From positions 682,001-746,000 of the forward strand of contig NZ_FOYT01000002.1 of the NCBI RefSeq assembly GCF_900112175.1: 64,000 nt of DNA. The letters run 5' to 3'. Both the position numbers and the translations under genes were made by a program. The stretch's first letter is position 1. Each line of letters begins with the position of its first letter. This stretch comes from Halogeometricum rufum (GTDB taxonomy: Archaea > Halobacteriota > Halobacteria > Halobacteriales > Haloferacaceae). The notes under the pieces are model-generated. The model did no database searches. It saw nothing but the letters and a program-made list of their open reading frames with translations, and was not told the origin of the DNA. Positions 6,039 to 57,465 of this stretch are shown in pieces.

Positions 6039-7040
6039 ATGGTCGAAACCCGAAAGGTGCAGGTGACGGGCGGGTCGACGTACACCGTCTCGATTCCCAA
6101 GGACTGGGCGACCGAGAACAACGTCTCCGCGGGGAGCGAGGTCGAGTTCTACCCCGAGGGCGACTCGCTGTTCCTGACGCCGCGCACGGAGGACGAGCGG
6201 ACGGAGGGGACCCTCGACATCGCCAACCTCGACGGCGACGAACTCACGCGCGCGGTGATGACGATGTACGTCAGCGGGTTCGACATCATCGCCTTAGAGA
6301 GCGGCCGCATCACGACCGAGCAACGACGGACCATCCGCGAGGCGACGCAGAGCCTCGTCGGCCTCGAAGTCCTCGAAGAGACGCGCGACCGGGTCGTCAT
6401 CCGCGACCTGTTGGACTCCTCGGAACTGTCCATCCACAACGCGGTGACCCGGATGCGACTCATCGCGCTGTCGATGCTCGAAGACGCCATCGCCGCCATC
6501 GCGGAACTGGACGACGACATGGCCCGCGACGTCATCCAGCGAGACGACGACGTGGACCGCCTCTGGATGGTCGTCTCCCGCATCTTCCGCGCGACGCTCC
6601 GGACCCCGAAGGCCGCCGAGGAACTCGGCCTGCCGCGTGAGGTGTGCTTCGACTACCAGTCGGCCGCCCGACAGCTCGAACGCATCGGCGACCACGCGAC
6701 GAAGATAGCCCATCTGACGCTCAACTTCGAGGAACCCGTCTCCGAGGAAGTCGCCGAGGCGCTCGAAGAACTGTACGTCGAGGCGCGCAAAGTCGTCGAC
6801 GACGGTATGGACGCCCTGTTCACCGACGACGCCGACGAGGCGTCGCGCCTCGCCAACGACGCCCGGGAGAAGGTGCAGGCGATAGACGAACGCGCCCGGA
6901 AGATAGACGAACTCCTGCGCGAGTTGGACCCCGCGCGCGCCCAACTGCTCGGTCTCATCGTCGACTCCGTCTCCCGGAGCGCCGACTACGGCGGCAACAT
7001 CGCCGAGACGGCACTCCAGAAGGCCGCGCCGACGCCCTGA
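6039..7040 (+). CDS. phoU: PhoU-type phosphate uptake regulator with AbrB-like N-terminus
   Basis: A 333-residue protein in the common archaeal arrangement: a SpoVT/AbrB-like swapped-hairpin fold at about residues 1-50 (VETRKVQVTGGSTYTVSIPK, then GSEVEFYPEGDSLFLTPR), followed by two PhoU helical-bundle repeats. The second repeat has the PhoU metal-site signature ARQLERIGDHATKIAH near residues 208-223. It probably senses or limits Pst transport and may bind DNA through the AbrB fold. Divergent from pstS, separated by the 483 bp control region. Leaderless ATG at 6039. Confidence 0.9.
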   Translation: MVETRKVQVTGGSTYTVSIPKDWATENNVSAGSEVEFYPEGDSLFLTPRTEDERTEGTLDIANLDGDELTRAVMTMYVSGFDIIALESGRITTEQRRTIREATQSLVGLEVLEETRDRVVIRDLLDSSELSIHNAVTRMRLIALSMLEDAIAAIAELDDDMARDVIQRDDDVDRLWMVVSRIFRATLRTPKAAEELGLPREVCFDYQSAARQLERIGDHATKIAHLTLNFEEPVSEEVAEALEELYVEARKVVDDGMDALFTDDADEASRLANDAREKVQAIDERARKIDELLRELDPARAQLLGLIVDSVSRSADYGGNIAETALQKAAPTP

Positions 7041-7114
7041 CCGGGCCGAACTGCACCTTCCCGTTCGGTCGCACGCACCGCACCTCACCGACCACCACCG
7101 CTCTTCGCCGACCG

Positions 7115-7155
7115 CTACCGCTTCTGACCATCTACCGCTTCTGACCATCTACCGC
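7115..7155. repeat. 17-bp tandem direct repeat after phoU
   Basis: Two perfect copies of CTACCGCTTCTGACCAT (7115-7131, 7132-7148) followed by a partial third (CTACCGC). Non-coding, in the gap between the convergent phoU and eS8 genes. Confidence 0.8.
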
Positions 7156-7224
7156 ACCTCGCCGATACTCACCGCGGAGCGGTCGCTGGCGACGGGAGAA
7201 GACGAGAGAGAATCCGCGGCGCAG

Positions 7225-7602
7225 TTACTCGTCGTCCACGAGGACGGCGTTGACCTGTCCGTCCTGACCGGGGCGGGAGGTGACGCGGGCGCGGCCTTCG
7301 CTGGTCTCGATGATGGCGCCCTTCGTGATGATGTTCCGGCGGATGTAGTTGACGTTCGAGGGGTTGTCCACGACGTTCTCTATCTCGGCTTCGGCGACGT
7401 CGCCGCCGTCTGCGACCTGCGCGACGTTGGTCGAGAGGGCGCGGACCTTCTGCTTGTTACCGCGGGAGTCGACGACGCGGAATCGGGGTTCGCCGACGGT
7501 CGTCTCGGTCGGTTCGCGGCCGAGTTGGTATCGCTTCTTCTTGTGCGAGGGTCGAAGTCGCCCGCCGGTGCGCTTCCGCTTCGAGCGTCCTTGGTCCTTC
7601 AT
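7225..7602 (-). CDS. rps8e: 30S ribosomal protein eS8
   Basis: Small-subunit ribosomal protein eS8, 125 residues, the normal archaeal length. The N-terminus MKDQGRSKRKRTGGRLRPSH and the later KKKRYQLGREPTETTVG are hallmark S8e sequences, and VNYIRRNIITKGAIIET marks the C-terminal half. The open frame extends upstream of the ATG at 7602, but the protein family begins with this Met. Highly basic N-terminus, acidic tail VLVDDE as usual in haloarchaea. Convergent with phoU. Confidence 0.97.
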   Translation of the reverse strand: MKDQGRSKRKRTGGRLRPSHKKKRYQLGREPTETTVGEPRFRVVDSRGNKQKVRALSTNVAQVADGGDVAEAEIENVVDNPSNVNYIRRNIITKGAIIETSEGRARVTSRPGQDGQVNAVLVDDE

Positions 7603-7741
7603 AGGGGGAGAGTATCCCGGTAAGTACTTCAATCGCTCGAATCGCCCCTCGTCGTGTGCCGCACACTCACCCGGGGCGCGAGCGCCCGCCGGACGGACGA
7701 AACCGGGAACTCCTTGTGCGGGCGCGACCCGACACGTGGAC

Positions 7742-8182
7742 ATGAGCCTCGACGTCGCGGTGGCGGTGCCGTTCAAACAGCGCGGGACCTCTCGCATGGG
7801 CGAAGGCGAGTTCGTGGTCGCTCTCTCCCTGGACCGCGACTGGTTCTCGCCCGACCAGGCGAAGCGACTCATCGACGTCGCCGCCGGGCGCGGCCTCCTG
7901 ACGCGCGAGGACGACGCCGTCGTCGCCGCGTTCGACCCCGCCGACGTCACCGTCCCCGAGGACTACGAACCCGACCAGTCCGTCCTCCGCGAGCAGTCGA
8001 CGTTCGAACGGATGCTCGACGCCCTCGTCGCCGCCGGCCACGACAAGCAGTCGGCCGTCGCGGAGGTGAACGACCTCCAGCGTCGACTCGGCGTCAACGT
8101 GGAGGCGGCCGCCGCCCTGTACGCCACGCGGCGCGGCGTGGACGTGGCCGACGCCGCCCGTGACGCGCGCGAGGAGTTGTAG
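7742..8182 (+). CDS. DUF2240 family protein
   Basis: A 146-residue protein matching the archaeal DUF2240 family as I recognise it (MSLDVAVAVPFKQRGTSRMG start, then DRDWFSPDQAKRLIDVAAGRGL, resembling a winged-helix-like helical domain). The C-terminal half (EVNDLQRRLGVNVEAAAALYA) is helical. Function is unknown; the helical architecture would suit nucleic-acid or protein binding, which is inference. ATG at 7742 chosen because upstream in-frame sequence is antisense to eS8 and does not look like family sequence. Confidence 0.75.
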   Translation: MSLDVAVAVPFKQRGTSRMGEGEFVVALSLDRDWFSPDQAKRLIDVAAGRGLLTREDDAVVAAFDPADVTVPEDYEPDQSVLREQSTFERMLDALVAAGHDKQSAVAEVNDLQRRLGVNVEAAAALYATRRGVDVADAARDAREEL

Positions 8183-8335
8183 CCGCGGACACGACGGCGG
8201 CCGGTCGGGATGAACCGTCGCCGAGCGTGCGAGGACGGGCGAGGGTGCCGTCCGTTCGCCGTCGTCGCGTGGAGCGAGGACGGGGGGCGGTTCGAGAGAC
8301 GTTATGTGTCCGCGGTTCGACGACCCGGACGAGAG

Positions 8336-8662
8336 ATGGAACGGACGGTCGACCTCTCGGGCGACTCGCTCGCCCGGTTCCTCTACGCGTCCCAACTGGC
8401 CGCGCTGTTACTGGTCGTCTTCTTCGTGGCGGTCCCAGTCGACGGCGTCGCCGGCGTCGCGGTGGCGGTTCTGTTCGCGTCGCTGTCGGCCGCGGCGGCG
8501 GTCGGCCTGTGGCGAACGGTGAGGGACCGCGAGGGCGGCGAGCATCTCGGAACCGTCGACGACATCACGTACGACCCGTTCGCGGACCCCGGGCAGGCCG
8601 CCAGAGACAGGTGGGAGAAGGCGGTCCGCCGGCTCCCGGACGGGGACGACGAACGGGACTGA
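8336..8662 (+). CDS. Small haloarchaeal membrane protein, function unknown
   Basis: A 108-residue protein with two adjacent hydrophobic segments (about residues 18-37 and 41-57) forming a helical hairpin, followed by a soluble acidic/basic tail with DDITYDPFADPGQAARDRWEKAV. The tail would lie in the cytoplasm. The frame is open further upstream to 8210, but that part has no hydrophobicity or codon pattern like the rest, so the ATG at 8336 is preferred. No function can be assigned. Confidence 0.65.
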   Translation: MERTVDLSGDSLARFLYASQLAALLLVVFFVAVPVDGVAGVAVAVLFASLSAAAAVGLWRTVRDREGGEHLGTVDDITYDPFADPGQAARDRWEKAVRRLPDGDDERD

Positions 8663-8748
8663 CGGCGGAGTCGCGGGCGGCGGCGCGAACCCACTCGGGA
8701 CCGCCGACAACCGCGCCGTCTAAACCGCCGAGCGGTCAACGGGCACGT

Positions 8749-9120
8749 ATGGTCGAGGACCGCCTGACGCACGGGAAGCGAATCGCCCAACTCGTCGCCA
8801 GCGAAGTCACGGGACACGAGCGGTCGCTGTCGTCGCTGTCGGTGACCGAGTCTGACCCCGACGTGGACCCCACCGAGGACGGCGCGTTCGCCTACGCCGT
8901 CGAACGCGAGGGCGAACGCGTCGCCGAGGTGTACGTCCACCCGGACCGCGCTCGCGTCGAGTTTCTCGTCGAACAGGAGGCCGTCGCCGCCGCCGCCGAA
9001 CGGGAGGGGCTCCGCGTCCGGCCGAAGGCCGTCCGTCCGCCGCGGACGCTCGTCTTCGTCGAGGACGGAGCGCAGGTGAAGTGGCTGTTGCCCGCTCTCA
9101 GGGCCGTCGCCGACCCGTGA
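8749..9120 (+). CDS. Conserved haloarchaeal protein, function unknown
   Basis: A 123-residue soluble acidic protein: helical N-terminus (MVEDRLTHGKRIAQLVASEV), then an alternating strand/helix region with VAEVYVHPDRARVEFLVEQE, VRPKAVRPPRTLVFVEDGA and a final helix VKWLLPALRAV. Codon use and acidity match the neighbours, so it is a real gene. ATG at 8749 follows a non-coding stretch. I do not recognise a characterised family. Confidence 0.7.
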   Translation: MVEDRLTHGKRIAQLVASEVTGHERSLSSLSVTESDPDVDPTEDGAFAYAVEREGERVAEVYVHPDRARVEFLVEQEAVAAAAEREGLRVRPKAVRPPRTLVFVEDGAQVKWLLPALRAVADP

Positions 9121-9142
9121 CCGCGGGTCGAAGCGACCCGTC

Positions 9143-9829
9143 TCAGAGCGACGCCAGCACCGACGGCAGTCGCTCGACCAGTACCTCGCGTTCGACGTGG
9201 GCGGCGGCGCGGGCGTCCGGGGCCGGGCCGCCCTCGAAGACGACCTGAATCGGCACGAGTCCGGCGTCGGCCGCACCCCCCACGTCGGCGTCCACGTCGT
9301 CGCCGACGTACGCCGTCTCCGCGGGGTCCGTGCCGAGAGCGTCCAGGAGGGCCTCGAACGCCGCCGCGTCGGGCTTGCCGGCGGGGAGTTCGCCCGTGAC
9401 GAGGGCCACGTCGAAGGCGTCCTCCCAGTCGAGGGTAGCGAGTTTGTCGCGTTGGGCGACGCGCGGGCCGTTGGTGAGGAGGCCGACGGCGTACTCCTCG
9501 CGCAGGTCCGCGAGGAACGCCTCCGCGCCGGGCACGGGGACGAGGGCGTCGGCGATGTGTTCGCGGTACGCCGTGGCGACGGCGGCCGGGTCGGCGTCCG
9601 TGTCCCGGCCGGCCAGAAGCGACTCGAATATCGGCGTCCGCGTCTCCCGCGTGAGGTTGCGCCCGTGCGCGTCGAGGTAGGCCTCTCTGGAGAGTGGTGG
9701 CGCGCCCGCGGCCGTCGCGGCGTCGCGCAGAATCGTCGCTCGGTCACGCGTCGGTACCGCGAGTGTGTAGTCGAGGTCGAACCCGACCGCCCGGATAGTC
9801 ACGGCTGGCGCTACGCGACGCACCACCAT
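9143..9829 (-). CDS. HAD-superfamily hydrolase (phosphatase-like)
   Basis: A 228-residue haloacid-dehalogenase-type phosphatase. Motif I is GFDLDYT (nucleophile D18, acid D20), motif II TNG near residue 119, motif III Lys in AGKPDAAAF near 152 and motif IV GDDVDADV near 177-184. The helical cap lies between motifs I and II, as in the phosphoglycolate phosphatase/2-haloacid dehalogenase-like group. Substrate unknown. A GTG at 9802 just before TIRAVGFDLDYT is an alternative start. Divergent from nurA with ~80 bp between them. Confidence 0.88.
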   Translation of the reverse strand: MVVRRVAPAVTIRAVGFDLDYTLAVPTRDRATILRDAATAAGAPPLSREAYLDAHGRNLTRETRTPIFESLLAGRDTDADPAAVATAYREHIADALVPVPGAEAFLADLREEYAVGLLTNGPRVAQRDKLATLDWEDAFDVALVTGELPAGKPDAAAFEALLDALGTDPAETAYVGDDVDADVGGAADAGLVPIQVVFEGGPAPDARAAAHVEREVLVERLPSVLASL

Positions 9830-31744: not shown

Positions 31745-31804
31745 CGTGAGGAGGGAGTGACGAGTCGGACGAATACGTGAGGAGGGAGTGACGAGTCGGA
31801 CGAA
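31745..31804. repeat. Perfect 29-bp tandem direct repeat
   Basis: Two identical 29-bp copies beginning CGTGAGGAGGGAGTGACGAG (31745-31773 and 31776-31804), separated by TA. They sit directly after the stop of the FilR1-like regulator gene (ends 31809 on the minus strand). Non-coding; could affect transcript termination or be slipped-strand duplication. Confidence 0.9.
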
Positions 31805-31808
31805 CGTC

Positions 31809-32880: not shown

Positions 32881-34551
32881 ATGACGGACGACGAGACGCG
32901 CGTCGAGTGGCGGCGGTGGGGTCCGGAGGCGTTCGAGGAGGCCGACGCGGCCGGGAAACCCGTGTTGCTGTCGCTGACGGCGACGTGGTGCGACGGCTGT
33001 CACGAGATGGACGTCGAGACGTACGGCGAACCGCGCATCGCCGCGAACGTGAACGACGACTTCGTGCCGGTCCGAGTCGACGTGGACCGCCACCCGCGCG
33101 TCCGCGAGCGCTACAACATGGGCGGGTTCCCCTCGACGGTGTTCTGCACGCCGTCGGGCGAACTCGTCACCGGGGCGATGTACCTCGGCCCCGACGGCAT
33201 GCGGCAGGTGCTCGACCGGGTCCGGGAGGCGTGGACCGATCGAGGCGACGCGGCCGGCCGGGTCCCGCGCGCTCTCGCGGACGACCCGACGCCGGAGGGG
33301 CCGGTGGACACGCACATCGAGGAACACCTCGCCGGGCAACTGGACGAGAAGTACGACGACCGGTTCGCCGGGTGGGGCGACGGGACGAAGTTCCCGATGC
33401 CGCGGACGATAGAGTTCGCCCTGAAGCGGTCGCGGCGACAGGCGGTGGAGACGCTCCGGACGCTGGCGGAGACGCTGTTCGACGACGTGGAAGGCGGCTT
33501 CTTCCGCTACGCCGAGGGCCGGGACTGGTCGGACCCGCACCACGAGAAACTGCTCGACACGAACGCCGCCCTCGTGCGGGCGTTCGCCAACGGCTACCTC
33601 TACACCGGCGACGACGCCCTCCTCGACCCGGCCCGGCGGACGCAGGCCTTCCTCGCGGAACGGCTCTGGAACGGCGCGGCGTTCGGGGGGAGCGTCGGCC
33701 CCGGCGACGGAAGTAGCGTCGGCCCCGACGACGGCGAGGAGTACTACGAACTGGACGCCGACGGCCGCGCCGACCACGCGGGGCCGCGGCGGGACCTGAC
33801 CGCCTACGCCGGCGCGAACGCCCTCGCGGCGGACGCCCTGCTGACGCTGACCGCGTACACCGACGACGAGTCCGCCCGCGACTACGCGGTTCGGACGCTG
33901 GACTACCTCGACAGCCGACTCGTCGACGACGACGGCGTCGTGGCGCACTTCGAGGCGGGCGAGGAGACGGGCGAGACGCTCCTCCTCGAGGACCACGCGC
34001 GGGTCGTCGCCGCGTTCGGCAGGGCGCGACAGGTGCTCGGCGACGACCGGTATCTCGACCGGGCGCGGGTCGTCGCGGACGCGACGCTCGACGAACTGCA
34101 GGCGGGCGACGGCGCCTTCAGAGACGGGCCGGCGTCGGGCGCCGGGTTGCTCGACCGGCCGCTTCGACCGCTGGACGCGAACGTGGAGATGGCCGACGCG
34201 CTCTGTGACCTCGCGGCGGTGACGGGCGAGGACGCCTACGAGGACGCCGCGCGGAACGCCGTCGGCGCGTTCGCGGGCGCGTGGGACCGCATCGGCGTCC
34301 AGGTCGCCGGGTACGGGTCGGTGGCGGCGCGACTGACCCGACCGACGCTCGTCGTCGCCGTCGGCGCGCCGGCCGGGTCGGACCTCCACCGCGCGGCCCT
34401 CCGCGTCGCCGACCACGAGAAGGTCGTCGTCCCCGACGCGCCGGCCGTCTCGGCCGACGCGGCGACGGTTCGCCTCGGCGACCGCGAACGGACCGTCACC
34501 ACACCCGACCAGTTGATGACCGCCGTCTCCGACCTCACCGACGGCGCGTGA
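32881..34551 (+). CDS. DUF255/YyaL thioredoxin-fold protein
   Basis: A 556-residue protein of the YyaL/SPATA20 type. Residues ~10-120 are a thioredoxin domain with the redox pair C37-x2-C40 (ATWCDGCHEMD) and cis-Pro region GGFPSTVF. The rest is an (alpha/alpha)6-barrel-like region, with GDGTKFPMPRTIEFAL and DVEGGFFRYAEGRDW typical of the family. Shorter than bacterial homologues (~690 residues), as in other haloarchaeal versions. Function unknown; a redox or sugar-epimerase-like role has been proposed for the family. Confidence 0.9.
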   Translation: MTDDETRVEWRRWGPEAFEEADAAGKPVLLSLTATWCDGCHEMDVETYGEPRIAANVNDDFVPVRVDVDRHPRVRERYNMGGFPSTVFCTPSGELVTGAMYLGPDGMRQVLDRVREAWTDRGDAAGRVPRALADDPTPEGPVDTHIEEHLAGQLDEKYDDRFAGWGDGTKFPMPRTIEFALKRSRRQAVETLRTLAETLFDDVEGGFFRYAEGRDWSDPHHEKLLDTNAALVRAFANGYLYTGDDALLDPARRTQAFLAERLWNGAAFGGSVGPGDGSSVGPDDGEEYYELDADGRADHAGPRRDLTAYAGANALAADALLTLTAYTDDESARDYAVRTLDYLDSRLVDDDGVVAHFEAGEETGETLLLEDHARVVAAFGRARQVLGDDRYLDRARVVADATLDELQAGDGAFRDGPASGAGLLDRPLRPLDANVEMADALCDLAAVTGEDAYEDAARNAVGAFAGAWDRIGVQVAGYGSVAARLTRPTLVVAVGAPAGSDLHRAALRVADHEKVVVPDAPAVSADAATVRLGDRERTVTTPDQLMTAVSDLTDGA

Positions 34552-34609
34552 GAGCGCCGCCTCGGAGCGCAGAGCCGTGAACCGGCAGAACGTGTAAACC
34601 CCCGGTTTG

Positions 34610-34638
34610 TTTTTAACCGTGGGGGGTCTGTTGTGACC
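34610..34638 (+). promoter_or_regulatory. TATA element of the TrmB-family gene
   Basis: TTTTTAACC (34610-34618) lies ~25 bp ahead of the ATG at 34639, indicating a leaderless transcript and favouring 34639 over the GTG at 34633. Confidence 0.6.
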
Positions 34639-35463
34639 ATGACCAGTCTGCGGGACCTCGGGTTGTCGGAGTACGAGGCGCGAGCGTACCGGTCGTTGCT
34701 GCGGACGGGTGCGACAACCGCCAAGGAGTTGTCGCGCGCCAGCGACGTGCCGATGGGCCGCATCTACGACGTGCTGAACAGTCTCGAACAGCACAGTCTC
34801 GTCCGGAGTCAGGCGGCGAGTCGCCCGAAGAAGTACGTCGCCGTCGAACCCGACACCGCGCTGGACCGTCTGCTGGAGACGAAGCGGCGGGAGTTAGAGG
34901 AGAAGGCCGAACAGTACGAGGCGGTCGTCGACGAACTCACCGACGAGTTGGAGACCGCAGAACCCGTGCAGGGGCAGTTCTGGACCGCCGCCGTCGGGAT
35001 GGAGGAGTCCGTGGACCTGTTGCTCGAACGCCTCTCGGCCGCCGACAGTTCGCTCGTCATGGTCGCCGGGACGCTCTCGCCGCAGTTCGACCTGGGCCGC
35101 GTCGGCGAACTCGTCACGGACGAACTCGAAGCCGCACTGGACCGCGGCGTGGAGGTGTCCGTGCTGATGTCGCCGAAGATAGTCTCGTCGCTCCCCCGGA
35201 GCGTCGGCCAACGCTACGTCGACCGCCTGGAGAACCACCCGCGCTTCGAGGTGCGGACGACGGAACAACTGCCGGGGACGTTCAACCTCATCGACGACGT
35301 GGAGGTGTGCATCGAGGTCCCGAACCCCCTCGACCCCGGCGAACCGTTCGCGATGATAGACCTGAAGGACGCCGAGTTCGCCACCGACATCCGAGAGATG
35401 TTCGACCCGCGGTGGGCGGAGGCCAAGCCCCTCACGCTGTCGAACGTCGAAGCGGACGACTGA
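34639..35463 (+). CDS. TrmB family transcriptional regulator
   Basis: A 274-residue archaeal regulator. The N-terminal winged helix (LGLSEYEARAYRSLLRTGAT, ELSRASDVPMGRIYDVLNSL) is typical TrmB, followed by a coiled-coil segment (residues ~80-110) and the C-terminal phospholipase D-like/sugar-binding-type domain (SSLVMVAGTLSPQFDLGRVG, LIDDVEVCIEVPNP). TrmB relatives sense sugars and control metabolic genes; here neither ligand nor targets can be read from the neighbours. Confidence 0.9.
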   Translation: MTSLRDLGLSEYEARAYRSLLRTGATTAKELSRASDVPMGRIYDVLNSLEQHSLVRSQAASRPKKYVAVEPDTALDRLLETKRRELEEKAEQYEAVVDELTDELETAEPVQGQFWTAAVGMEESVDLLLERLSAADSSLVMVAGTLSPQFDLGRVGELVTDELEAALDRGVEVSVLMSPKIVSSLPRSVGQRYVDRLENHPRFEVRTTEQLPGTFNLIDDVEVCIEVPNPLDPGEPFAMIDLKDAEFATDIREMFDPRWAEAKPLTLSNVEADD

Positions 35464-35587
35464 CCGACGCCGTCGAACCGACGAGGAGAACCGCTCACGG
35501 CAGAGCGAGTCGCTCGGTCGTCGCGGCGTTCGCGCCGGCGATTGCGTCGGCGCGGTCCCGAATCGCGACCGACGACGGCGACCCGGA

Positions 35588-36517
35588 CTACAGGTCCGCG
35601 AGTTCGTCTCTGAGTTCGCCCAGCGACGCGACCCGTTCGGCGTGGGCGTTGTGCTGGTGGATGGACTCGTCGTTCGACTGCTTCATGTGGACGACGGCGC
35701 TGTCGGCGAGGTAGTCGAACTCGTCGACGACCTGTTCGGCCATCGACCGGACGCAGTCCTCGACGAACTTCGCGTTGGCGTGCGCGTGGTAGGTCATGTG
35801 GTCCTCGTCGGGTCGTTTCGCGAGGTTGTAGATGCGTGCGGACATCGAGTCGCGGGCGATGTCCACGAGGTCGATGAGGTCCACGTCGGGCGACCCGTCC
35901 GTCTCGACGGTCAGCGTCGCGTGTCCTCGCTGGGAGTGGCCCGGTTGCGGGACCTGCTCTAGGAACTCCTCGATGGTGTCGTCGTCGACGTCGAGGTCCC
36001 GCATCACGTCGCGGGCGCGGGAGGCCGACATCCCCTGCGAACAGGGACAGACCGTCATGCCGACGACCTCGGCCCCGATCTCCTCGCGGGTGCCGTCCTC
36101 GGTGGCGACCGCGCTGGCGATGATGTTGGCCGTGCTCTGCGTCTGGAGGTCCGACGCCGGAGTGTTCTCGCGGAGGACGAGTTCCGCGGTCATCCGCACC
36201 TCGGCCTCCGAGGTGTAGTCGTGCTTGGCGAGGAGTCGCTCCGCGGTGTCACCACACATGTCCTCGACGCGATACGTCGGTTCGGCGACGGCGTCCTCGA
36301 GGATTTCGTCGATGACCTGCATGTTCCGGCTCATGTCGATCCCCTTGCGTCCGCTGGGTAAGTCGACGAACACCTCGAACTCCGCCATCAGAATCAGCGG
36401 GCGCTTGCCGTCGCGAGCGATTTTGACGAGTTTGTCCACACCCGTCACACCCACCTGGCTCAGTCCGACGGTCACGTCGGGTCTACCTGCCTGAACGTCA
36501 GGCAACTGGTGACTCAT
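35588..36517 (-). CDS. mptA: GTP cyclohydrolase MptA (FolE2 type)
   Basis: A 309-residue enzyme starting archaeal pterin synthesis: converts GTP to a dihydroneopterin cyclic phosphate. Family features include [31 protein letters not shown], the catalytic-metal Cys in [12 protein letters not shown] (near residue 160), [13 protein letters not shown] and [14 protein letters not shown]. Length is normal. Convergent with the TrmB-type gene. Confidence 0.95.
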
Positions 36518-36622
36518 CGTGAGAAGGGTAGGATTGTGTTCGATTAATGCTTTCGCTAGGGGAACGGCGCTGGGCGGCGAAATCGCCCACGTCGCCGCGT
36601 CTGCCGGGAGGTGGTGTCGGTG

Positions 36623-37039
36623 TCAGGGCCAGTCGTCGCGAGTGCTCGTCTCGAACGGGTCGTCCTCCTCCGACTCGCCGGCGAGCGCCCAGCCTGCGGC
36701 CTCTGCGGCCTGTTCGAGCGGGAGATACTCCCACTCGGTCCGGTCGGCGAGATCGCGGTCCTCGTCGCTCGTCCCGACGAAGACGTGGCGGTCGGTGTCG
36801 AACTGCCGTTTCACGTTCTCCAGACTCTCCTCGACGCCGCGCGGTCCGGAGAAGAAGTCCTGACGGACGCGGTGTTTCCGAGTGAAGTTCGTGACGACGT
36901 AGGTGGGCTTGTCGCTCACCACGCCGACGTACTCCGTCCACTGCCGTGCGTCGTTGAAGACGGCGTTCGGGTCGGCGAGCGCCTTCAGCGCCGCCAACTC
37001 GAACGCCAGCGTCATGTCGGTAGAGCCGCCTCCGTCCAT
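36623..37039 (-). CDS. DUF7124-like haloarchaeal protein
   Basis: A 138-residue acidic soluble protein: MTLAFELAALKALADPNAVF, YVGVVSDKPTYVVTNFTRKH, DFFSGPRGVEESLENVKRQF and an acidic end ESEEDDPFETSTRDDWP. I know it only as a conserved haloarchaeal family of unknown function. Start could be 37039 or the Met eight codons later at 37015. The first TnpB element begins ~110 bp upstream. Confidence 0.7.
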   Translation of the reverse strand: MDGGGSTDMTLAFELAALKALADPNAVFNDARQWTEYVGVVSDKPTYVVTNFTRKHRVRQDFFSGPRGVEESLENVKRQFDTDRHVFVGTSDEDRDLADRTEWEYLPLEQAAEAAGWALAGESEEDDPFETSTRDDWP

Positions 37040-37282
37040 GCCCGAAGATGGTCGCGTCGGACGCAAAACCGCTTCGGTTCCGCGACCGAGAAACGGCCGC
37101 CTCACCGGTCGAACCGGAGCGAGAGGAGAAGACCGAGTTACGGAGAATCGAGGAGAAAGCCCCGCCGTTTAGGGCGGGGATGAATCCGACACTACCCTTC
37201 GCAATCCACCGTTCAAACGCTCGGCAGGATATTCCACGCTCAAATACATATTTTCAAGTAACTATCTCGTCATAGGTTACGT

Positions 37283-38563
37283 ATGGCGAAACAGGTCGTC
37301 ACACGCACCTACACTGCTTCCATACGGAACCAACAACGGGTGTCCGACGACCTCGACGCCCTCGGGTTCTCAGCATCAAAACTCTGGAACGTCGGGCGGT
37401 GGGTTTGCGACCGAGTGTGGTCAGAGATAGGTCACATCCCCGGTCACAACGAACTCACCTCGTACCTCAAGTCGCACGAACGCTACGATGACCTGCATTC
37501 TCAGTCAAGTCAGCGAGTTTTGCAAGAACTCGCTGAAGCGTTCAACGGCTGGTACGGCAAACGACGTAACGGAGACACGAGAGCAAACCCACCGAAGTAC
37601 CGCAAACACGGCGACGACCATCCGCGAAGTACGGTCACGTTCAAAGCCGCAGGCTTCAAACTCGACACCGAGTACGAAAGAGTCCGACTCTCGAAAGGCT
37701 CGAACCTCAAGGAGTATTGGTCGGACTTCATCCTCTGCGAATATCAGATTCGCCCCGACGTTAACCTCTCCACCGTGGAAAACGTCCAACAGGTTCGAGC
37801 AGTCTGGACTGGTGACGAGTGGGAACTGCACTTCGTGTGCAAAGTTGAAATCGAGGTTGCTGAATCACCCGGTGAGAAGACCGTGGGTGTTGACCTCGGT
37901 ATCAACAACTTCGCCACGCTCGCCTACGAAGACGGTCACAGTGAACTGTATCCGCTCAACTGTCTGAAGCAGGACGACTACTACTTCAGCAAGCGAATCG
38001 CTTGCTGTGACGACTCAGACTCAGAGCAGGCCACGCGACTGAATCAGAAGAAGTCGGCCCGTCGAACCCACTACTTCCACACGCTCTCGAAACACATCGT
38101 TCAGCGATGTGTTGACGAAGGGGTGGCGACGATTGCGGTTGGCGAGCTCTCCAGTATCCGCGAGGATGAGGAGAACGGCGAGTCGAAGAACTGGGGTAAG
38201 CACGGCAACCTCGACCTGCACTCGTGGGCGTTCGACCGCTTCACACAGATGCTCGAATACAAGGCCGAGATGGAAGGCATCACTGTCGAGCGGGTGTCTG
38301 AGCGCGATACGTCGAGGTCGTGTTCGTGCTGTGGGCGGAAGCGTGACGCGAACCGTGTTGAACGTGGGTTGTATGTCTGCGATGAGTGCGGTACGGTGGC
38401 GAATGCAGACGTGAACGCCGCTGAGAACATTCGACAGAAAGTATCTCCGAATCCCGCCACAGATGGCGGTGATAGGAGTAACGGCTGGTTGGCACAGCCA
38501 TCGACGTACTTGTTCGATTCAGAGAGCGGATGCTTCGCACCGCGAGAACAGGCCACGTCGTAA
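37283..38563 (+). CDS. tnpB: TnpB RNA-guided nuclease (first element)
   Basis: A 426-residue TnpB of the IS1341 type. RuvC residues are intact: Asp in KTVGVDLGINNFATL, Glu in IAVGELSSI and Asp in NADVNAAENI. The zinc ribbon CSCCGRK...CDECG sits between the last two. The N-terminal half (QQRVSDDLDALGFSASKLWN) is the wedge/REC-like region. TnpB proteins use an omegaRNA from the element's 3' end to cut DNA next to a target-adjacent motif. With no TnpA nearby, mobility would depend on a TnpA elsewhere. Confidence 0.93.
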   Translation: MAKQVVTRTYTASIRNQQRVSDDLDALGFSASKLWNVGRWVCDRVWSEIGHIPGHNELTSYLKSHERYDDLHSQSSQRVLQELAEAFNGWYGKRRNGDTRANPPKYRKHGDDHPRSTVTFKAAGFKLDTEYERVRLSKGSNLKEYWSDFILCEYQIRPDVNLSTVENVQQVRAVWTGDEWELHFVCKVEIEVAESPGEKTVGVDLGINNFATLAYEDGHSELYPLNCLKQDDYYFSKRIACCDDSDSEQATRLNQKKSARRTHYFHTLSKHIVQRCVDEGVATIAVGELSSIREDEENGESKNWGKHGNLDLHSWAFDRFTQMLEYKAEMEGITVERVSERDTSRSCSCCGRKRDANRVERGLYVCDECGTVANADVNAAENIRQKVSPNPATDGGDRSNGWLAQPSTYLFDSESGCFAPREQATS

Positions 38564-53694: not shown

Positions 53695-54447
53695 ATGGCA
53701 CCGTCCACCGGTCTCCGACGCCTCGCGGACGGCGACGGACTCCCGCCCGCGGACCGACTGCCGTGGTGGCTCTCGCCGCTCCCCGAGTGGCTGGAGAACG
53801 TCGGTCTCAACCTCGTCTGGGTCGTCGTCGCGATAAACCTCCTCGGGACGGCGTTCGGCTTCTGGTACTACGGCTTTCACCCGATTCCGCTGTCCGACCC
53901 GTTGATAACGTGGCAGTTCGCCGCCGAACCGGTCGTCATGTGGCCGTTCGTCCCCGACAGTCCCATCGCGACGCTGTTCATCGCCGCCGCCTTCGGCCTC
54001 TGGAAACTCGGTCGGACGAACGAGTACGTGAACGCGCTGGCGTTCTTCGGCTGCTGGAAGCTCGGCCTGTGGACGCCGTTCGTCCTCGCGACGTTCTCGG
54101 AGGCGTTTCTGGAGATAAATCCGCTCCCGATGTACCTGTTCCTGTTCTTCAGCCACCTCGCGATGGTCGTCGAGGCGTTCGTCATTCACCGCATCTCGGA
54201 CTTCCCGGTGCGCGCCGTCGCCGTCGCCGTGGTCTGGTACGGCTTCAACGACGTGGTGGACTACTTCTATCCCATCGTCGGCGACCCCCACCACACGTCG
54301 CTCCCCCTCGCGGACGCCGCCCCGTTCGCCGGCAGCACCGTCCTCCAGATAGCCGCCGCGGGCGCCGTCGTCCTGACGCTGGTGGCGACGTTCACGTCGC
54401 TCGCGACGCGCGTGAAGAAGTTGGAGTCGGGGTCGCTGCGGCCGTAG
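53695..54447 (+). CDS. DUF1405 membrane protein (first copy)
   Basis: A 250-residue protein with about six membrane segments. Family-like blocks: LNLVWVVVAINLLGTAFGFW, PFVPDSPIATLFIAAAFGLW, WKLGLWTPFVL and WYGFNDVVDYFYPIVGDPHH. I recognise it as DUF1405 (a conserved archaeal/Bacillus membrane family of unknown function). A related gene lies at 55686-56354 on the other strand; the two flank the enolase-type gene. Confidence 0.85.
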   Translation: MAPSTGLRRLADGDGLPPADRLPWWLSPLPEWLENVGLNLVWVVVAINLLGTAFGFWYYGFHPIPLSDPLITWQFAAEPVVMWPFVPDSPIATLFIAAAFGLWKLGRTNEYVNALAFFGCWKLGLWTPFVLATFSEAFLEINPLPMYLFLFFSHLAMVVEAFVIHRISDFPVRAVAVAVVWYGFNDVVDYFYPIVGDPHHTSLPLADAAPFAGSTVLQIAAAGAVVLTLVATFTSLATRVKKLESGSLRP

Positions 54448-55685: not shown

Positions 55686-56354
55686 TCACGTCTCGTTCTC
55701 CAGCCGTCGAACGCGAATCGCGAGTGCGAGAAACGTGCCGAGAACCGTCAGACAGACGGCCGCGGCGGCGGCGACGTCGTGCGCGCGGACGGAGTGGTCG
55801 CCGGCGCCGGCGAGTCTGGGACCGAAGTACGTGTGGTGGTAGTCCCCGACGAGGGGGAGGAAGTAATCGACGACGTCGTTGAAGCTGAACCAGACCGCGG
55901 GGACGGCGACGGACGGGACGGTGAACTCGGCGTACCGGTGGACGACGAACGCCTGAAGCCCCATCCCGAGGTGGCTGACGAGGAGGAACCACTGGTAGGG
56001 GTCGCCGGTCGCGAACACGTCGTTGACGGCGACTTGGACCACGACCACCCAGAACCCGTACTTCAGGTTCCCCACGAACGCCAGCGCGTGAATCCAGTTC
56101 CGGTCCCGGCCGACCTTCCACGACACCAGACTCGCGACCATGAACAGCGTCACCAGCGGGCTGTCCGGAACCGCGGGCCAGATGACGGGCCGGCTGTTCG
56201 CGAGCTGAAACCGGTAGTGCCAGAACCCGAACGCGGTGCCCGCGAGGTTGACCGCGACGAGCACCCACGCGAGGCGGAGGGCTATCGATTCGACCGGGTC
56301 GGGAAGCGGCGAGAGGTACGCCGGGAGGTCGTCTGCGGGGGGAATCCGAGCCAT
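55686..56354 (-). CDS. DUF1405 membrane protein (second copy)
   Basis: A 222-residue membrane protein paralogous to the one at 53695: LAWVLVAVNLAGTAFGFWHY, PAVPDSPLVTLFMVASLVSW, LKYGFWVVVVQV and WFSFNDVVDYFLPLVGDYHH align with it. Convergent with the enolase-superfamily gene (gap 84 bp). Function unknown. Confidence 0.85.
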   Translation of the reverse strand: MARIPPADDLPAYLSPLPDPVESIALRLAWVLVAVNLAGTAFGFWHYRFQLANSRPVIWPAVPDSPLVTLFMVASLVSWKVGRDRNWIHALAFVGNLKYGFWVVVVQVAVNDVFATGDPYQWFLLVSHLGMGLQAFVVHRYAEFTVPSVAVPAVWFSFNDVVDYFLPLVGDYHHTYFGPRLAGAGDHSVRAHDVAAAAAVCLTVLGTFLALAIRVRRLENET

Positions 56355-56538: not shown

Positions 56539-57465
56539 TCAGTTCCCCGTGCGCGAGAGTTCGTCGGCGTCGGCGCCGGCGTGCGACCGGACCCACAGTT
56601 CGCCGATGCGCGACAGGCGGGTTCGGTAGGACTTGCCGTGTTCCTCCTGTTCGATGTAGCCCTTGCCGCCGGGACCCAGCCTGTCGACGTTGTAGATGAC
56701 CTTCGAGCGGAAGGAGTCGGTGTACTCCTCGTTCATGTCGCGGGCGAGCGTCTCGGCCAACTCGGAGACGGACTCGAACTCGCCGTACTCGCCCAACTCG
56801 AACAGGATTATCTCCTCGAACGGCTTCACGCTGGAGAAGGAGGCGACGGGGAGTTCGACGATGTGTTCGCCGCCGATGCGCTTGGCGCCGATGGTCGTCC
56901 CGCGTTCGTCGAACTCCTCCAGCAGGTCGGACGCCGAGTCGAACCGCTCGCGGACCCTCTCGTCGGCGACGTCGTCGCCGTCGAGCATGTCGCCCAACAG
57001 GTCCCGGGCCGCCCGAACCTCCTCTGCGAGTTCGGTCTCCAGGTACTTCTCGGGAGCCGTGTAGTAGGTGTGGATTCGCTCTCTGTCCTCCTGCCGTTCG
57101 ACCATCACCGAGTGGGCGGCGGTGGCGAACGCGAACGAGACGGGCCGCGGCATCGCCGAGACGTTCACCCACACCTCGCTGTCGTCGGCCTTGTCCAACT
57201 CGGTGTTGATGAGGTGGTACGCCTGTTCGAAGGCGGCGTCGTAGTCGTACACGTCCTCGACGACGACGCGTTCGGTCTCCGCGCCGAGGAGGTTGCGGAA
57301 GTCCTTCTCCAGTTTGGTCGAGAGGTTCCGGGAGTACTCGACGTTCGCCTCCGACCCCACCGCCCCCTCCAGTAAGATGACGTGGTCGACGTCCAACTGG
57401 TCGCGGATGAGCGGCGCGATGAGTCGGTCGTAATCGAACCCGACGGGGACGACGTGCGTCTGCAT
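56539..57465 (-). CDS. HFX_2341-type (DUF6293) CARF-like regulator
   Basis: A 308-residue protein. Residues ~1-130 (MQTHVVPVGFDYDRLIAPLI, then VDHVILLEG, VVVEDVYDYDAAFEQAYHLI and EVWVNVSAMPRPVSFAFATA) have the strand-loop pattern of a CARF-like ligand-binding Rossmann domain. After a helical linker, the C-terminus (FELGEYGEFESVSELAETLA, DSFRSKVIYNVDRLGPGGKG, SRIGELWVRSH) is a winged helix. The family is known in haloarchaea as HFX_2341. ATG at 57465; the longer frame upstream is not family-like. No CRISPR-cas genes nearby. Confidence 0.8.
   Translation of the reverse strand: MQTHVVPVGFDYDRLIAPLIRDQLDVDHVILLEGAVGSEANVEYSRNLSTKLEKDFRNLLGAETERVVVEDVYDYDAAFEQAYHLINTELDKADDSEVWVNVSAMPRPVSFAFATAAHSVMVERQEDRERIHTYYTAPEKYLETELAEEVRAARDLLGDMLDGDDVADERVRERFDSASDLLEEFDERGTTIGAKRIGGEHIVELPVASFSSVKPFEEIILFELGEYGEFESVSELAETLARDMNEEYTDSFRSKVIYNVDRLGPGGKGYIEQEEHGKSYRTRLSRIGELWVRSHAGADADELSRTGN

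Follow-up and report, generated by a model that had tools for sequence, protein, structure and literature searches.

An HFX_2341-family CARF–winged helix regulator of Halogeometricum rufum: near-core distribution, a changed pocket and plasmid relatives beside TGT/CBASS genes

This study examined a CARF–winged helix-turn-helix (wHTH) regulator encoded in the window, that is, the whole 64,000-nucleotide stretch of Halogeometricum rufum DNA analyzed here. CARF domains are usually interpreted as detecting cyclic oligoadenylates made by CRISPR systems. In contrast, the CARF domain described here is kept by almost every haloarchaeon in a set of 292 genomes in which no Cas10 was found, its pocket is changed, and its sister branch lies beside CBASS-type genes. 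We consider that the protein is probably a dimeric wHTH repressor, global and independent of CRISPR, which is gated by a nucleotide-like ligand other than cyclic tetra-adenylate (cA4).

The gene itself is not new: it is the ortholog of HFX_2341 (proposed name crr) of Haloferax mediterranei, which a 2024 paper described as a global repressor acting independently of CRISPR. The present analysis adds the near-core distribution set against cas1 and Cas10, the Met in the pocket, and the sister clade linked to TGT/CBASS genes. As the mobile relatives lie beside another antiviral defence, the signal of the regulator is worth testing, and the changed pocket, the lack of Cas10 and the sister branch together make a clear and cheap test possible, both of the pocket ligand and of TGT/CBASS control.

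Identity, fold and distribution of the regulator

The ORF is real. It had initially been annotated as an HFX_2341 regulator with a CARF-like N-terminal domain and a C-terminal winged helix, and each of these readings was borne out. The ORF runs from an ATG at 57465 to a stop codon at 56539–56541, and the profile search with the NCBIfam equivalog NF051475 (TransRegHFX_2341) exceeded the curated cut-off over residues 1–297 (Table 1), placing the protein in this family. Pfam HFX_2341_N (91.5 bits, residues 3–141) and DUF7776 matched as well, and the PADLOC class was CARF3. The 80 orthologs compared were 74–92% identical to the window protein, the closest being those of Halogeometricum (91–92%), with Haloferax at about 81–82%.

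Table 1. Positions of the regulator and its parts in the window, and of related genes at other loci
Feature	Location	Strand	Basis or remark
HFX_2341-family CARF-wHTH transcriptional regulator, 308 aa	56539–57465	−	ORF; NF051475 587.1 bits, cut-off 500
CARF domain, residues 1–141 (Pfam HFX_2341_N)	57043–57465	−	Pfam; AlphaFold2 model; PDB structure matches
Linker domain DUF7776, residues 142–211	56833–57042	−	117.3 bits; 6 of 70 positions invariant over 88 sequences
Winged helix-turn-helix, residues 212–296	56578–56832	−	AlphaFold2 model of residues 206–308; Foldseek; 19 of 85 positions invariant over 88 sequences
Pocket motif 1, G9-F10-D11-Y12-D13-R14	57424–57441	−	position of Csa3 motif 1 (PMC8844856)
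Pocket motif 2, N101-V-S-A-M105-P106-R107	57145–57165	−	CARF signature (PMC4012209)
TATA-like TTTTTAA	57488–57494 (57494–57488)	−	by inspection
Met-Pro-Arg CARF-wHTH paralogs	L149 6992–7903; L151 6992–7900; L152 6992–7882; L157 6992–7885; L158 6986–7864; L159; L174 4213–5115; L164 6077–6961	L164: −	divergent from TGT/Cap10-like gene
Met-Gly-start genes	L169 6783–7148; L171 6793–7065; L172 6963–10028; L166 3674–4309; L149 4762–5934		near TGT-like genes
DFIYGDI small acidic proteins	L151 5539–5901; L152 5569–5952; L158 5540–5911; L159 5558–6022

The TATA-like box lies about 27 nt 5' of the ATG, which suggests that the transcript may be leaderless; by eye, a T/A-rich box stands at a matching distance in most of the 80 ortholog upstream regions. 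A palindromic operator over the TATA box, striking in a few genomes, was rejected, since two tests gave it no support: its top Z was 3.6 in a column-pair test against neighbor-gene promoters (controls, 3.2 to 4.7), and z was −1.6 in a per-sequence test against shuffles.

The full-length AlphaFold2 model, built from an alignment of 44 of the 81 orthologs, was weak (mean pLDDT 63.9, pTM 0.52), with residues 1–140 better. All 15 PDB matches of the N-terminal domain model at E ≤ 0.001 in Foldseek were CARF proteins (Cam1, Csm6, Csa3 and Can2), and VIA superposed the domain on Can2 with Z 15.0 (1.7 Å over 111 residues) and on Csa3 with cA4 with Z 12.3 (2.5 Å over 123 residues). The modelled domain thus has the Rossmann-like CARF fold, and the lack of any structural match to CARF, which would have counted against the original reading, did not occur. 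Residues 206–308, modelled separately, gave a pLDDT of 85.9 and the order H-H-H-E-E-H, namely three helices, a wing and a long helix; in Foldseek this model came closest to Halobacterium salinarum RosR and to MarR-type proteins, the matches having E values of 2.4e-3 or weaker and none reaching E ≤ 0.001. Neither a single-sequence nor a profile search found a relative of the protein among PDB chains.

NF051475 matched in 283 of the 292 genomes of the class and in all 77 genera, indicating a near-core haloarchaeal gene. Cas1 matched in 102 of the 292; among the 283 genomes with NF051475, 101 had Cas1 and 182 had no Cas1 match. The Cas10 palm model matched in none of the 292 genomes and the Csm1 model in none over its cut-off, these counts coming from one palm and one Csm1 model, neither of them calibrated on known haloarchaeal Cas10. 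At E ≤ 0.001 the Csm1 model matched in 189 of 292 genomes, and among the matches listed these reached at most 27.4 bits and lay within roughly the first fifth of the model.

The whole genome that contains the window had no match to Cas1, the Cas10 palm or Csa3_N, and the window held no CRISPR array at the settings used. The claim that this regulator stands away from CRISPR is therefore upheld, and strict co-occurrence with type III CRISPR, which would have spoken against it, was not seen with the two Cas10 models; the genome search proposed for a cyclic oligoadenylate producer likewise returned no Cas10 palm. The only repeat noted in the array search was a 31-nt direct tandem repeat in two copies (31745–31806). 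No relatives of the regulator were found in viral contigs (two profiles) or in phages.

The following data have been reported for HFX_2341 of H. mediterranei: HHpred similarity to Csa3a, a vertical history, and presence in the CRISPR-negative Halobacterium salinarum (PMC11434293). In the same report, deletion derepressed many transport and metabolic genes, the regulated genes being enriched in transport, and cas genes were little changed by RNA-seq and increased by qPCR; over-expression strongly repressed cas genes, and its authors noted that the effects may be indirect (PMC11434293). Since the ortholog was published as acting outside CRISPR, the idea of such a role, raised anew for the window gene, is already in print. 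Repression of cas genes cannot be the role of the window gene, because its genome lacks Cas1.

Around the 81 chromosomal copies, two neighbors recur, a symporter-like gene on the upstream side (44) and, on the downstream side, one that is PdxS-like (40), both named by reading translations; no defence gene family recurs. In the window, two similar membrane proteins that read as DUF1405-like (53695–54447, plus strand; 55686–56354, minus strand) flank the enolase-like gene adjoining the regulator, and members of this one blastp family stand beside the regulator in 35 of 83 rows.

Pocket residues and candidate ligands

In Csa3, motif 1 (G9-F10-N/D11-x-x-F14) and motif 2 (G96-M97-R98) are reported to hold cA4, which is lost in the F10A, F14A, G96A and R98A mutants (PMC8844856, PMC8699464). 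The check for conserved ligand residues proposed in the initial annotation gave a divided picture: G9, F10, D11 and R107 are kept, and G96 and F14 of Csa3 are replaced by Met and Arg, respectively. In a joint alignment of 81 orthologs and seven TGT-linked paralogs, which left out the unreadable or partial L138 and L145, G9, F10, D11 and R14 were invariant, R107 (R98 of Csa3) was Arg in 81 of 81 and 7 of 7, and the column of Csa3 G96 was Met (M105), again in 81 of 81 and 7 of 7. In the same alignment, Met occurred at this place in none of 31 other PF19810 proteins (all G, A, C or S) and none of 22 Csa3_N proteins (all G or S). The CARF signature [DN]X[ST]XXX[RK] (PMC4012209) is present after strand 4, with S103 changed to Cys in 11 of 81 orthologs.

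Only the G96 position is telling, because F14 is also missing from 13 of the 22 Csa3_N proteins; R14 was dropped as a mark of changed specificity, as it occurs in other PF19810 proteins and in 4 of the 22 Csa3_N proteins too. As the Gly needed by Csa3 is an invariant Met here, cA4 is unlikely to be bound in the Csa3 manner, by analogy with one Csa3. The pocket may therefore have kept its phosphate grip and lost the Csa3-type pose of cA4, as judged from its residues.

Over 88 sequences (81 orthologs, six plasmid regulators and that of locus L164) at about 40% identity, 55 positions were invariant. The CARF domain contributed 30 of its 141 positions, including G9, F10, D11, R14, N101, M105, P106, R107, Y134 and Y135. 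This conservation bears on the proposal that the CARF domain is a ligand-free dimerization scaffold and the protein a constitutive global repressor. The invariant bulky Met may fill the pocket, and over-expression alone represses cas genes in H. mediterranei (PMC11434293), as such a scaffold would allow; however, the pocket motifs are among the best-kept positions across this divergence, and we regard the proposal as quite unlikely.

A Csa3-like sensor of type III cyclic oligoadenylates would account for the fold match to Csa3 and for the kept GFD of motif 1 and Arg of motif 2. We nevertheless hold it to be very improbable, since neither Cas10 model gave an accepted match in the 292 genomes, the invariant Met stands at the Gly whose Ala mutant is reported to lose cA4 (PMC8844856), and the Csa3 model TIGR01884 scored 14.7 bits against a cut-off of 60.2, which keeps the protein out of the Csa3 family.

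The authors of the 2024 study suggested cAMP or c-di-AMP as the signal (PMC11434293). According to this idea, DacZ makes c-di-AMP, the two CARF half-sites bind the two-fold symmetric dinucleotide, and transporter expression shifts. The idea agrees with the reported enrichment in transport and with the reported essentiality of dacZ in Haloferax volcanii (PMC6741144). The diadenylate cyclase (DAC) domain was found in all 292 genomes, with two matches in the genome of the window. However, both genes are near universal and the nine genomes without NF051475 still have DAC, so that co-distribution is no evidence for c-di-AMP. We know of no CARF protein that binds c-di-AMP, which also counts against this receptor, and we consider it unlikely.

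We favor the reading given at the outset, a repressor whose gating ligand is nucleotide-like but is not cA4. In such a protein, the two CARF domains of a homodimer would form one two-fold pocket, and a ligand in this pocket would change how far apart the two C-terminal winged helices stand on promoter DNA. We infer a phosphate-bearing ligand because R107 is kept at the place of Csa3 R98, and one other than cA4 bound as in Csa3 because of the Met at Csa3 G96 and the lack of Cas10 in these genomes. Its main role in the cell would be to repress transport and metabolic genes globally, as in H. mediterranei, and not to serve as a part of CRISPR.

Plasmid relatives beside TGT/CBASS genes

A tblastn search of PLSDB plasmids with the window protein found 11 records, nine of them at ≥80% coverage and all below 60% identity. 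With a plasmid relative as the query, 11 records with 12 places were found, nine records again at ≥80%; these nine hold 10 places (L149–L152, L156–L159, L174 and Salinigranum rubrum), a count that leaves out a Halobaculum record (41% coverage). At all 10 of these places on haloarchaeal plasmids, the regulator and a gene of one homologous, TGT/Cap10-like set are divergently oriented; L164, which lies on a contig from a related genome (G040), brings this to 11 of 11 intact places. The broken Natribaculum copy (L173) has no TGT within 5 kb.

PADLOC called the partner gene a TGT (CBASS accessory) in L157 (153.9 bits), L149 (79.7), L151 (45.4), L158 (38.7) and L152 (28.6). The L150 and L156 partners are 98–99% identical to that of L149; the L159 partner had no PADLOC match and is 60% identical to that of L152, and L174 carries the protein accession of L159. 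The Salinigranum partner, split into two frames, matches that of L157 at 2e-20. Intact CBASS operons, with a CD-NTase and Cap15 or SLATT, were found at 2 of the 11 places: L157 combines TGT with two CD-NTases and Cap15 (98.8 bits), and L164 has TGT (7029–7958, 436.6 bits), a CD-NTase (7962–9011, 533 bits) and a SLATT_4 effector over its cut-off (9035–9685). Salinigranum retains a CD-NTase remnant (238.5 bits), and the genes scanned at the other eight places included no recognized CD-NTase. The plasmid sister clade is thus CBASS-linked in the sense of lying beside TGT or CD-NTase genes. The window gene is not, as the window showed no similarity to TGT, CD-NTase, Cap15, SLATT or QueC queries. 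TGT-like genes also occur in records without a relative of the regulator (L166–L169, L171, L172 and L175).

The sister-clade regulators and the window protein are 41–68% identical to the L149 protein, the window protein at 41%. In a maximum-likelihood tree of 56 N-terminal domains, 21 sampled orthologs formed one group (100/100) and joined six TGT-linked regulators (100/99), apart from 29 other PF19810 proteins; the six grouped by themselves in 42% of the bootstrap trees, and where the long branches belong is unsure.

A rival explanation is that TGT/CBASS modules come with a nucleotide signal or stress to which the whole Met-Pro-Arg clade responds; the chromosomal copy would then be a domesticated member that still reads a chemically similar signal of the host, and plasmid-borne CBASS and CRISPR may also be under its control. 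The divergent arrangement at every intact place, the operons of L157 and L164, the clade support and the identical pocket residues at about 40% overall identity argue for this explanation. Against it, no TGT, CD-NTase or Cap15 gene lies near any of the 81 chromosomal copies, at 9 of the 11 places the stretch searched lacks an intact CD-NTase, and many of the genomes that carry the chromosomal gene may lack CBASS. On balance we think it doubtful, if worth serious attention.

A bolder form, which we regard as somewhat more doubtful still, holds that the HFX_2341 clade left CRISPR and now serves TGT/type IV CBASS modules. The signal read by its Met pocket would be either the product of a CD-NTase or a nucleotide connected with 7-deazaguanine protein conjugation; mobile copies would repress TGT/CBASS until the signal arrives, and the domesticated chromosomal copy would tie host metabolism to the defence state. 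In type IV CBASS, TGT-family Cap10 and QueC-like Cap9 are reported to modify the CD-NTase, joining a 7-deazaguanine to its N-terminal Gly (PMC11996544), and this N-terminus is described with an MGGS motif (PMC13279940). At its N-terminus the L164 CD-NTase reads MGGGYSTS, and the first L157 CD-NTase reads MGNTYRSS. The open-access literature searched gave no report that places a CARF-wHTH regulator beside CBASS.

Several further features of these loci were observed. Met-Gly starts (MGGRYG, MGGRFG, MGGGGS and MGDG) occur in genes that are not recognized as CD-NTases and that adjoin or lie near TGT-like genes (Table 1), and from their sequences these proteins are possible other substrates of 7-deazaguanine N-terminal conjugation. 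On four plasmids, the TGT-like gene is followed by a gene for a small acidic protein; these proteins have a DFIYGDI stretch in common, and those scanned gave no family match. The Haloplanus plasmid NZ_CP147875.1 has two regulator/TGT modules (33673–38114 and 203665–208103; L174 and L159), the regulator of one being annotated as two pieces. L167 (4077–7870) and L168 (4126–7881) have TGT/CD-NTase operons without a CARF regulator, and the protein encoded upstream, which ends in a winged helix and matches AAA models weakly, is perhaps another regulator of the module.

Eight regulator/TGT intergenic regions were compared for a shared motif. GGTGCCA occurred in four of eight, a level reached by shuffles; ACCTTCG occurred in five of eight, which the best 7-mer reached in 2 of 300 shuffles, and it may be a shared motif, but four of these plasmids are related. 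A SMODS match in the genome of the window (L155 532–1974; 22.6 bits against a cut-off of 26.5) was rejected as a CBASS cyclase, since it reads as CCA-adding-enzyme-like.

Comparison with known systems

Like HFX_2341/crr, the window protein has 308 aa with a CARF domain and a wHTH, is chromosomal and away from CRISPR, and passes the equivalog cut-off of the family; it differs in coming from another organism, with a genome lacking Cas1. With Csa3 (PDB 2wte, 6w11 and 6wxq) it shares the CARF-wHTH architecture, the GF(D/N) loop, the Arg after strand 4 and a VIA Z of about 12. Unlike Csa3, it has Met105 for Gly96, Arg14 for Phe14 and the additional DUF7776 linker, and its gene has no cas link, with no Cas1 or Cas10 palm in the genome.

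Other archaeal PF19810 proteins, such as the paralog in the same genome (G000:C2:371689-372114; L113 3663–4496), share HFX_2341_N and a GxExDR motif 1; they differ in having G, A, C or S at the place of M105 (31 of 31) and a DUF6293_C winged helix, and in forming a separate clade. This paralog, with HFX_2341_N, DUF6293_C and the pocket motif NISTGTN, lies just 3' of genes that read as succinyl-CoA synthetase-like.

Bacterial CBASS operons can carry the ligand-type wHTH repressor CapW, as reported in PMC9122588, which parallels the plasmid sister clade in joining a ligand-type domain to a wHTH beside CBASS. CapW differs in that its sensor is a WYL domain instead of CARF and in being bacterial, and the CBASS link on the haloarchaeal side belongs to the sister clade and not to the window gene.
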